A DNA stretch of 64,000 nt from Lachnospiraceae bacterium (GTDB lineage: Bacteria > Bacillota > Clostridia > Lachnospirales > Lachnospiraceae), in assembly GCA_024690605.1 (NCBI GenBank), contig JAILOV010000008.1, positions 1-64,000 of the forward strand. The letters run 5' to 3'. Below are positions 54,999-58,643 of this stretch, one piece after another; within the stretch, counting starts at the first letter, position 1, and each line of letters opens with the position of its first letter. Both the position numbers and the translations under genes were made by a program. The notes below the pieces were generated by a model, which did no database searches, was not told the DNA's origin, and saw only the letters and a list, made by a program, of their open reading frames with translations.

Positions 54999-55024
54999 AA
55001 CATATGAACAATTGTTCATATGTT
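54999..55024 (+). promoter_or_regulatory. Perfect 26-bp palindromic operator (ArsR/SmtB type)
   Basis: AACATATGAACAATTGTTCATATGTT is its own reverse complement and lies just downstream of the -10. Confidence 0.9.
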
Positions 55025-55050
55025 TGCGTAGAGTGAGCAAGGAGGATCGG

Positions 55051-55410
55051 ATGAGCCTTAAGGATGTGGAACAGTGCGAAGTGAGAGAACTCCATCCGGA
55101 GAAACTGCGGATCGCGCGCGCGTCGATGCCGGATGAGGATGAGATCGCGGACCTCGCGGAACTGTTCAAGGTGTTCGGGGATTCGACCAGAATGCGGATC
55201 CTGTTCGCGCTTTTTGATACGGAGATCTGTGTCTGCGACCTCGCGGAGACACTTTCCATGACCCAGTCGGCGGTCTCCCATCAGCTGCGCATCTTAAAAC
55301 AGGCACATCTGATCGGGGCACGCAGGGAGGGCAAGAGCATTTTTTATTCTCTGGCAGACGATCATGTGCGCACGATCATCGGTCAGGGAAGGGAACATAT
55401 TGAGGAGTAG
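55051..55410 (+). CDS. ArsR/SmtB family metalloregulator (CadC-like)
   Basis: LAELFKVFGDSTRMRILFALFDTEICVCDLAETLSMTQSAVSHQLRILKQAHLIGARREGKSIFYSLADDHV. Confidence 0.94.
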   Translation: MSLKDVEQCEVRELHPEKLRIARASMPDEDEIADLAELFKVFGDSTRMRILFALFDTEICVCDLAETLSMTQSAVSHQLRILKQAHLIGARREGKSIFYSLADDHVRTIIGQGREHIEE

Positions 55411-55433
55411 AAGGAAAGAAAGGAGACAGCATC

Positions 55434-55652
55434 ATGAAGAAAAAATTCAAGTGTGAAGTGGATTGCGCGAACTGCGCGGCCAAGGTGGAGGAGGCGATCA
55501 AAAAGGTCCCGGGCGTCATCGACGCGAGCGTCAATTTCCTCACGCAGAAGACCATGATCGAGGCGGCCGACGATGCCTTCGATGAGGTCGTGCAGGCGGC
55601 TCTGAAGGCAGCCAAAAAGGTTGAGGACGAATTTGAGATGGAGATCGCGTAA
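55434..55652 (+). CDS. Heavy-metal-associated (HMA) domain protein
   Basis: KFKCEVDCANCAAKVEEAIKKVPGVIDASVNFLTQKTMIEA. Confidence 0.93.
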   Translation: MKKKFKCEVDCANCAAKVEEAIKKVPGVIDASVNFLTQKTMIEAADDAFDEVVQAALKAAKKVEDEFEMEIA

Positions 55653-55667
55653 GGAAGGAATTGTGCA

Positions 55668-57650
55668 ATGACGAAGAAGCAGAAAAAAACGCGGACGAGG
55701 ATCCTGATCACGCTGGTCTGGTTCGCGGTCCTGATGATCTTTGAGGGACAGATCGCTGCCCTGTCGGAGAGCGCGGCCGCTGCCGTCTGCGGCGGGAACA
55801 CGGCACGCATCCTGCCTGTGACGCGTCTTTTTCTGCTTGTGATCTACGTGCCGCCCTATCTGCTGATCGGCCATGATGTCATCCTGCGGGCACTGAAGAA
55901 CATCCGGAACGGGCAGGTCTTTGACGAGAATTTCCTCATGATGGTCGCGACCTTTGCGGCGTTCGGCGTCGGAGAGTACAGTGAGGCGCTTGCCGTCATG
56001 TTGTTCTACCAGATCGGTGAACTCTTCCAGAGCTACGCCGTGGGGAAATCGCGGCAGTCGATCACCGAGATGATGAGCATCGCGCCGGAATATGCCAATC
56101 TTCTCGCGGAGGACGGGACGATCAGCGAGGTCGATCCCGATGAGGTGCCGGTCGGTGCCGTGATCGTGGTGAAACCTGGGGAGAAGATCCCGCTGGACGG
56201 CGAGGTGGTGGAGGGTGAGTCCTTTATCGATACCGCGGCGCTCACCGGCGAATCCGTGCCGAGGCGCGCGGCTCCGGGAGAAGCCGTGATCAGCGGCTGC
56301 GTGAACGGGGCGGGGACGCTGCGCGTGCGCGTGAGCAAAGCCTATGAGGACTCCACGGTCGCGAGCATCCTGGAGATGGTGGAGAATGCCGGCAGCAGGA
56401 AGGCCCGCCTGGAGAATTTCATCACGCGCTTTGCGAAATACTACACCCCCGTCGTCACGATCGGCGCGGCACTGCTGGCGGTCCTGCCGCCGATCGCGCT
56501 GGCACTGTCCGGACAGGCACCCCGGTGGAGCGACTGGATCGGCCGCGCGTGCGTGTTCCTGATCGTGTCCTGTCCGTGCGCGCTGGTGATCTCGGTGCCC
56601 CTCGGGTTTTTCGGCGGGATCGGCGCGGCGTCAAAGATCGGCGTGCTGGTGAAGGGAAGCAATTTCCTGGAGGCGATCGCCGACACGACGACGGTCGTCA
56701 TGGACAAGACGGGGACGTTGACGGTCGGCGAATTCCGGGTGACCCGGATCTGCCCCGCGGCAGGGGACGAAACGGAGGCTTCGCTCCTGGAACTGGCGGC
56801 CTATGCCGAATCGCTCTCCACGCATCCGATCGCCGGATCGATCGCGGAGGCGCATGCGGCAGCGGTTGCGCGCGGAGAAGCGGAACCGCTGCGGTCCGGG
56901 CGTGTCACGGACATGCAGGAGATCGCCGGTCACGGAACGCACTGCCTTCTGGACGGCAGAGTGCTGCTCGCCGGAAATGCCGCGCTGCTTAAGGAGAACG
57001 GCATAACAGACGATAAAATAACATCTGATATTGAAAAACACGCGGGCACTGTTGTGCTGATCGCCTTTGACGGTGTGTACCGCGGCGCGATCGTGATCGC
57101 CGACACGATCAAAAACGGAGCGGTCTCCGCGATCGCCGACATGAAGGCAGGCGGCGTGAGGAAGGTCGTGATGCTCACCGGTGACCGCAGAAAGGCTGCG
57201 GAAGCGGTGGCCGCAGAGCTTGGTATCGACGAGGTGCACGCGGAGCTCCTGCCGGTTGACAAGGTGAACACGGTGGAAACGCTCCTCGCCGGGCAGCAGG
57301 GCAGGGACATGCTGGCCTTTGTCGGAGACGGGATCAACGACGCGCCGGTGCTCATGCGTGCGGATGTCGGGATCGCGATGGGAAGTCTCGGATCGGATGC
57401 CGCGATCGAGGCGGCGGATATCGTGCTGATGGATGACGATATCACAAAGATCGCCAGACTGGTCAGGATCGGACGACGGACGCTCAGGATCGTGCGGCAG
57501 AATGTTGTTTTTGCCATCGGTGTGAAACTTCTTGTTCTGACGCTCGGCGCGCTGGGGATCGCCACGATGTGGCTCGCCGTGTTCGCCGATGTCGGCGTCG
57601 CCGTTCTCGCGATCCTGAATTCCATGCGGGCGTTGAAGGAAGGTCATTGA
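55668..57650 (+). CDS. cadA: Zn/Cd/Pb-type P1B-ATPase (CadA/ZntA-like)
   Basis: IVSCPCALVISVPLGFFGGIG, MDKTGTLTVGEF, GDGINDAPVLMRADVGIAMG; ArsR/HMA upstream. Confidence 0.93.
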   Translation: MTKKQKKTRTRILITLVWFAVLMIFEGQIAALSESAAAAVCGGNTARILPVTRLFLLVIYVPPYLLIGHDVILRALKNIRNGQVFDENFLMMVATFAAFGVGEYSEALAVMLFYQIGELFQSYAVGKSRQSITEMMSIAPEYANLLAEDGTISEVDPDEVPVGAVIVVKPGEKIPLDGEVVEGESFIDTAALTGESVPRRAAPGEAVISGCVNGAGTLRVRVSKAYEDSTVASILEMVENAGSRKARLENFITRFAKYYTPVVTIGAALLAVLPPIALALSGQAPRWSDWIGRACVFLIVSCPCALVISVPLGFFGGIGAASKIGVLVKGSNFLEAIADTTTVVMDKTGTLTVGEFRVTRICPAAGDETEASLLELAAYAESLSTHPIAGSIAEAHAAAVARGEAEPLRSGRVTDMQEIAGHGTHCLLDGRVLLAGNAALLKENGITDDKITSDIEKHAGTVVLIAFDGVYRGAIVIADTIKNGAVSAIADMKAGGVRKVVMLTGDRRKAAEAVAAELGIDEVHAELLPVDKVNTVETLLAGQQGRDMLAFVGDGINDAPVLMRADVGIAMGSLGSDAAIEAADIVLMDDDITKIARLVRIGRRTLRIVRQNVVFAIGVKLLVLTLGALGIATMWLAVFADVGVAVLAILNSMRALKEGH

Positions 57651-57718
57651 TGACGGTTCCTCATGAAATCTTTGGATAACAGTCGGGAAAAGAGTTTCCT
57701 CCGGGAAGCTCTTTTTGA

Positions 57719-57724
57719 TATAAT
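57719..57724 (+). promoter_or_regulatory. Extended -10 promoter element
   Basis: TTTTTGATATAAT (TGnTATAAT) 50 nt upstream of the 28-codon ORF. Confidence 0.5.
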
Positions 57725-57774
57725 ATGGCGATAGAAATCCGTGGCATCATTACAGTCAAAGGAGAACACAGCCC

Positions 57775-57858
57775 ATGATGAATAAAAAAGTGATCCGTGT
57801 GATCGCGCTGATCCTGGTGGTCGCCATGATCGTGACGATCCTGATCGGCATTCTGTAG
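57775..57858 (+). CDS. 27-aa single-TM micropeptide (not in supplied ORF track)
   Basis: ATG ATG AAT AAA AAA ... encodes MMNKKVIRVIALILVVAMIVTILIGIL*; RBS AAAGGAGA upstream. Confidence 0.65.
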   Translation: MMNKKVIRVIALILVVAMIVTILIGIL

Positions 57859-57870
57859 GAGGGCCGGAAC

Positions 57871-58062
57871 ATGCAGCGATCATCGGGCGGCCGGTTCCGG
57901 GTGGACCCGGATCTGCGGGATATGGCAGAGGTGTTTCATATGCCTTTTTCCGCGCGACTGCGCTATCTTTATCTGCCCGCACTGACCGGGAAGAAACGCC
58001 GCGCGGATGCCCCGGAAGAGAGTGAAAGCGCCGGACAGCCGGACGGGGGGCAGACATCATGA
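57871..58062 (+). CDS. 63-aa peptide resembling the EAA coupling loop of SsuC/TauC-type ABC permeases, with no TM segments
   Basis: DPDLRDMAEVFHMPFSARLRYLYLPALTGKK matches the cytoplasmic EAA loop; RBS TAGGAGG; 4-nt ATGA overlap with next gene. Confidence 0.65.
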   Translation: MQRSSGGRFRVDPDLRDMAEVFHMPFSARLRYLYLPALTGKKRRADAPEESESAGQPDGGQTS

Positions 58063-58643
58063 CGATCGAACTGGAGCAGGTCGGCAAGCGTTACGGCGAC
58101 AGGCAGGTGCTGCGGGAACTGACTCTGGATGTTTCGACGGACACCTGCTATGCGGTGACGGGGGAGGCCGGCAGCGGCAAGACGACACTTCTGCGTCTTC
58201 TCATGGGACTGGAGAAGCCCGATACGGGCAGGATCCGTCTGCTGGGAGACTATAAATACACATGGCTCGCCTGCGGTGCCGTGTTTGAACGGGATGCGCT
58301 GATCGAAGAGCTCTCCGCCGTCCGCAATGTTTCCGTGATCCGCAAGCTCACGAGCGACAAGGCAGCCAGAGAGGAACTGGTGAAGCTTCTGCCCGCAGAG
58401 CGGACGGAGATCCCTGTATGTGAACTTGGCAGGGCCGAGCGGCGTGCGGTCTGTATCGTGCGTGCGCTGTCCGTGCCCGCGGATCTGATCGTCATGGATG
58501 AACCGTTTGCCGGTATGTCGGATGATGAGCGGGCGTCTGCTGTCCGCTACATCATGGACAGGAAGGGCAGCACACCGCTTGTGATCGCCATGCGGGAGCG
58601 GTGTGAGGAGATCCGCAGTTTCAAGAACATCGCACTGTCCTGA
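58059..58643 (+). CDS. ABC ATPase-like protein with degenerate signature, Q-loop and H-loop
   Basis: GEAGSGKTTLLRLLMGLEKPDTGRIRLLG (Walker A), LIVMDEPFAGMSDDE (Walker B); LSGGQ position reads LGRAE. Confidence 0.85.
   Translation: MTIELEQVGKRYGDRQVLRELTLDVSTDTCYAVTGEAGSGKTTLLRLLMGLEKPDTGRIRLLGDYKYTWLACGAVFERDALIEELSAVRNVSVIRKLTSDKAAREELVKLLPAERTEIPVCELGRAERRAVCIVRALSVPADLIVMDEPFAGMSDDERASAVRYIMDRKGSTPLVIAMRERCEEIRSFKNIALS

Follow-up and report, generated by a model that had tools for sequence, protein, structure and literature searches.

The closest described systems are the type I importers of the SsuABC/TauABC kind, which take an NMT1-type binding protein. An EAA loop and a nucleotide-binding domain (NBD) homologous to theirs are encoded by a pair of genes in the window, that is, the whole stretch of 64,000 nucleotides of Lachnospiraceae DNA analysed here, and complete versions of the importer exist in sister species. 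Unlike SsuABC/TauABC, the pair keeps Walker A and B but comes without permease helices, binding protein, LSGGQ signature or H-loop histidine and, on its sequence, cannot work as an importer in the accepted way. ABC domains that are soluble and do something other than transport are well known, namely ABC-F, ABC-E, Rad50/SMC and UvrA; these differ in that they keep LSGGQ-type signatures and dimerise or stand in tandem. To our knowledge, none of them has a free EAA loop, and no described system consists of a free coupling loop and a signature-less NBD. Open-licence papers yielded no earlier description of an orphan EAA peptide or a similar module. Two other systems are informative: (i) in MlaFB, the small protein MlaB binds and stabilises the ABC ATPase MlaF (PMC7367683), as we propose for the peptide and its NBD, but MlaB is a STAS domain that uses a different face, and MlaF has a complete catalytic apparatus and works for a transporter; (ii) the importer ATPase MalK restrains MalT besides transporting (PMC7863352), a transport-independent regulatory role that is a model for the function proposed below, although MalK, a complete ATPase that also has a C-terminal regulatory domain, continues to transport. 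In short, the parts of the module are homologous to known families and the tested ABC-importer features (permease, binding protein, signature, H-loop) are missing.

Three ORFs on the forward strand make up the locus, all located where the sequence-only reading had placed them: a 27-aa single-TM micropeptide (57775-57858), a 63-aa orphan EAA coupling-loop peptide that starts 12 bases further on (57871-58062, core 57901-57990) and a 194-aa ABC ATPase (58059-58643). An AGGAGGG ribosome-binding site precedes the ATG of the 63-aa ORF, whose stop codon shares an ATGA with the start codon of the 194-aa ORF, an overlap that couples the pair translationally. Upstream lies an ArsR/HMA/P1B-type-ATPase operon (55012-57650; Pfam HTH_5 and E1-E2_ATPase) that ends in a strong terminator-like hairpin on the same strand (57687-57719, RNA fold -18.6 kcal/mol, z -4.33). 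The extended -10 element claimed from the sequence was found as well (TGATATAAT, 57716-57724, forward strand), a putative promoter with no good -35 that overlaps the T tract of the hairpin; a consensus scan returned no sigma-70 site on the forward strand at these positions. Since the hairpin closes the upstream operon and the extended -10 lies there, the three ORFs probably form their own transcription unit.

The resemblance of the 63-aa core to the EAA loop of SsuC/TauC-type permeases, first noted from the sequence, is borne out by profile comparison. Same-genus relatives encode a permease of 241-265 aa (Pfam BPD_transp_1) where the window has the peptide, and when a 37-row alignment of orphan peptides was compared to 14 full-length permeases by hhalign, the match fell exactly over the EAA loop (probability 98.6%, E 1.1e-15). 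Conversely, full permeases searched against the reduced loci by tblastn showed similarity essentially confined to permease residues ~130-198, and no permease remnant was detected outside the EAA stretch except at L183, where the hit is a separate SsuC-type permease downstream of the pair. At that locus (L183:3787-6395) the peptide-ATPase pair stands beside a canonical SsuC/SsuB-type importer gene pair, a single case and a possible functional link. By these comparisons, what the 63-aa ORF encodes is the EAA coupling loop of a permease of the SsuC/TauC type and no other part of it. The peptide matched no family of Pfam or NCBIfam at cutoff, and its profile had no match among PDB sequences. Across the reduced forms the orphan loop measures 35-70 residues, and SD-like sequences stand ahead of 21 of 24 peptides, against a background of 20%; ORFs of 35-70 aa beside ABC ATPases thus merit annotation.

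The 194-aa protein is an ABC_tran domain by Pfam (66.9 bits for a cutoff of 25, 3.7e-18), and all motifs read in it at first sight are confirmed: Walker A (GEAGSGKTT) and Walker B (LIVMDEP) are intact, while LGRAE replaces LSGGQ, VFE stands at the Q-loop and AMRER at the H-loop, where the histidine is gone. The Q-loop change is nevertheless not general, as 44 of 47 reduced relatives keep the glutamine and the Q-to-E exchange of the window is a near-private exception. Among the peptide-linked NBDs, the Walker A lysine is present in 46/47 and the Walker B DE in 43/47. SGG and the H-loop histidine, on the other hand, are absent from all 47 and from the six NBDs linked to partial permeases (6/6), whereas both are present in 38 of 42 full-permease NBDs and in the three (3/3) with an unassigned upstream gene, i.e. 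in 41/45 NBDs with a full or probable full permease. In the well-sampled Butyrivibrio clade, entropy rises from full to reduced forms at SGG (0 to 2.0 bits) and at the D-loop (0.7 to 1.9) and is unchanged at Walker B (0.13 vs 0.09) and GDYKY (0 vs 0). Four loci (G070, L162, L172, L173) combine a full permease with degenerate NBD motifs, so that, inferred from present-day states, the loss of catalytic motifs can apparently precede that of the permease. A Foldseek search matched ordinary NBDs.

The NBD is present as a single copy in 67 of 79 genomes of the genus (Butyrivibrio in the GTDB sense, from named records). Of these, 34 have a full permease, three a partial one (83, 147 and 153 aa), four no EAA ORF and 26 an orphan loop, this last count including one peptide cut by a contig end (G018) and one in frame with a longer ORF (G078). 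For example, B. proteoclasticus P18 has the reduced form and B. hungatei DSM 14810 the full one. Other Lachnospiraceae have reduced pairs too (the combined tree has 47 reduced rows, plus two more), in line with the conserved co-occurrence that the sequence-only reading had proposed to look for. An NMT1-type binding protein is found in 33 of the 34 full genomes vs none of the 29 peptide or partial genomes, that of the window included (Fisher 4e-17). The [FeFe] hydrogenase gene (Fe_hyd_lg_C) adjoins the importer in 33/34 full genomes; it is still present in 22 of 26 reduced genomes and adjacent in only 6 of the 23 assessed, indicating that the pair moved as a unit. The pair is kept in several gene contexts, and the neighbouring genes of reduced pairs show no common pathway. 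The conserved full-type order, seen in L091 (G072) and in 33 of the 34 full-type loci, is a LarB/AIRC-like gene, NMT1 binding protein, SsuC-type permease, ABC ATPase and monomeric [FeFe] hydrogenase (490 aa), with a hybrid histidine kinase-like protein of ~1000 aa often next in line; this brings to notice a hydrogenase-linked importer of Butyrivibrio that is still uncharacterised.

How the peptide may sit on the NBD is suggested by two genomes, G073 and G061, in which both lie in one frame. Their read-through translations (stops read as Gly), artificial single chains with no designed linker, gave confident AlphaFold2 models of mean pLDDT 89.9 and 87.3 and pTM 0.86 and 0.85, respectively, the alignment for the second using in-frame fusions as bridges. 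The peptide forms two or three helices (pLDDT mostly 85-93) in a helix-turn-helix or hairpin arrangement and the linker is disordered; the known form of the EAA element is two short helices (PMC3150292). The high pTM despite a disordered linker of 21-24 residues suggests a defined position for the peptide and, as judged from the pTM and pLDDT of the fusions, lends support to a possible docking in the coupling-helix cleft of the NBD. Residue co-variation provides independent support for this docking: of the peptide-bearing NBDs, 47/47 retain F76, 47/47 D79 and 45/47 R80 (G073 numbering), residues beside the Q-loop, while the genus's peptide-less NBDs (4/4) have S, G and mostly Q at these positions, an SQxG pattern shared by three further Lachnospiraceae loci, these peptide-less NBDs probably being one clade and hence one event. 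The signal lies in particular residues; over the whole Q-loop/cleft region, conservation in the reduced clade is not above the protein average.

We think it rather probable that the two proteins are the module left from a reduced SsuABC/TauABC-like importer and now constitute a non-transporting, ATP-binding regulator or scaffold. The ancestor comprised an NMT1-type binding protein, a BPD_transp_1 permease and an ABC ATPase, usually encoded beside the [FeFe] hydrogenase. Binding protein and permease were lost repeatedly; what stayed, translationally coupled and under selection, is precisely the EAA loop together with the ATPase. Gone from these ATPases are the motifs of the sandwich dimer and the catalytic linchpin (LSGGQ, D-loop, H-loop His); Walker A and Walker B, its catalytic Glu included, persist, as does the Q-loop Gln in almost every relative, though not in the window. 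From the models and the residue co-variation, the peptide may remain in the coupling-helix cleft as an obligate small subunit that stabilises the NBD; four genomes of the genus with a degenerate NBD and no EAA ORF speak against the explanation. The complex would bind ATP or ADP without a productive sandwich dimer or a transport cycle, and act on a partner as a nucleotide-responsive regulator or scaffold, a role that may have been a side job of the ancestral importer and outlived transport. Most likely the leftover pair has a second, non-transport job, which would be that of a regulator or scaffold. As twelve genus genomes are without the ATPase, this function is dispensable, a further point against the explanation. 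With a little less assurance, though still on the favourable side of even, we propose that these pairs represent a class of non-transport ABC modules in which a free EAA peptide is the obligate subunit of a signature-less, nucleotide-binding ATPase, arisen repeatedly from one importer lineage and exposing a selectable, transport-free function of the coupling interface. Repeated reduction suggests that the complex of NBD and coupling loop does something in its own right: it is a repeated natural experiment in which an ABC importer is stripped of its pore and catalytic motifs and the coupling interface alone is kept, and it offers a minimal, probably soluble pair for studying the allostery between coupling helix and nucleotide site.

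Another possibility is that the peptide and a hydrolysis-impaired ATPase act as decoys, occupying the NBD clefts or permease loops of other SsuBC/TauBC-type importers as a dominant-negative brake. While the peptide keeps its binding surface, the NBD keeps a nucleotide-binding fold, the genome holds many other ABC ATPases and the pair at L183 adjoins a canonical SsuC/SsuB-type pair, we consider this unlikely: the L183 arrangement is absent from the other loci, the loop is closest to the permease of its own lineage and these genomes contain no second ortholog of that importer's ATPase.

The first ORF raises the question of a third part. The 27-aa peptide, a short basic N-terminus followed by one TM helix, reaches no family at cutoff. 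In these two features it is like Prli42, a stressosome-associated micropeptide, to whose profile it has a weak match, and it differs in scoring under the curated cutoff (NF033880, 14.8 bits vs 27.5). The sequence-only reading had taken it as one of three components, and a membrane-tethered unit could be imagined in which it anchors the loop-ATPase complex: it ends just ahead of the loop ORF in the window and also adjoins the pair in one close relative, G038, and a TM helix is fused to the loop in L195. This is doubtful, as nearly all other reduced loci have no TM-peptide neighbour and homologs in G034 (67% identical) and G015 (54%) follow a cadA-type gene with no pair beside; in G034, TM peptide and pair are on different contigs. 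The TM micropeptide is thus not supported as a conserved third part and is probably, from its genomic distribution, a cadA-linked, separable neighbour beside which the pair landed. A TM micropeptide of 27-29 aa (MMNKKVIRVIALILVVAMIVTILIGIL) is conserved behind cadA-type P1B ATPase genes in the window (57775-57858), in L203 and in L204.

Returning to the two-protein module, selection and phylogeny bear on the choice that the sequence-only reading had left between decay and repurposing. The dN/dS comparison it had called for indicates purifying selection on both genes: NBD ratios are 0.04-0.11 in usable pairs and reach 0.24 among divergent members of the window's clade, those of the peptide are 0.03-0.3 in most pairs, with a few noisy highs of 0.7-0.8 over about 40 codons. 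The window and G038 give 0.31 for the peptide and 0.11 for the NBD, and the 40-aa peptides of G012 and G050 are identical at dS 0.29. On a 102-row NBD tree, which places the window with good support in a five-member clade (G034, G049, L174, G038, G000), the peptide state changes six times, at least three changes being forced by well-supported branches. A single origin of the reduction is rejected by the AU test, both for all reduced rows (p 0.0014) and for peptide rows alone (2e-6), with groups set by architecture independently of the tree and with long branches present; reduction therefore happened repeatedly, in Butyrivibrio of the rumen and in related bacteria of the gut. That the pair is a relic of a decaying transporter, kept by chance on its way to loss, could account for the lost transport genes, the degenerate catalytic motifs and the 12 of 79 genus genomes that miss the ATPase. 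It is nonetheless highly improbable: dN/dS is far below 1 in both genes, the identical loop-plus-NBD end state was reached repeatedly, the tight start/stop overlap and the RBS are kept and the pair was relocated together to new contexts. Relatives with a full-length permease exist as anticipated, but the scattered frameshifts expected of decay were not found, the reduced forms being clean ORFs without frameshifts or permease debris; the isolates B. proteoclasticus P18, Su6, INlla21 and YAB3001 are also reduced, which argues against a MAG-assembly artefact. Pseudogene decay is thus rejected on dN/dS, RBS, debris search and phylogeny. The comparative data instead favour repurposing of the coupling-loop/ATPase interface, because dozens of species, in several contexts, have held on to loop and ATPase as a pair under purifying selection; pairing and selection are borne out, the 27-aa peptide as a part is not.

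Finally, a split transporter, its permease completed by TM segments from genes elsewhere and its uptake still driven by the pair, as partial permeases of 83-177 aa in some relatives and the separate TM micropeptide of the window might hint, is scarcely credible, since a binding-protein homolog is found in none of the 29 reduced genomes and all have lost LSGGQ and the H-loop His, which coupled hydrolysis requires.

Several individual loci extend the picture. One branch of peptide-less, degenerate ATPases (L118, L117, L119, L120, L217, L219, L221) reads VSQEG or VSQAG at the Q-loop and lies in unrelated contexts; it may be either the next reduction step or a separate orphan ATPase. In Lachnospiraceae bacterium NK3A20 (L195:3747-4004), an 85-aa protein has an N-terminal TM helix fused to the EAA loop, its gene lying between hydE/hydF-like genes (identified by eye) and a hydrogenase gene. 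The pair is relocated in one Butyrivibrio subclade (L074, L075, L080, L065); a lipoprotein-like ORF precedes it in L080 and L065, anthranilate synthase genes follow downstream, and the L065 peptide is in frame with the lipoprotein-like ORF.
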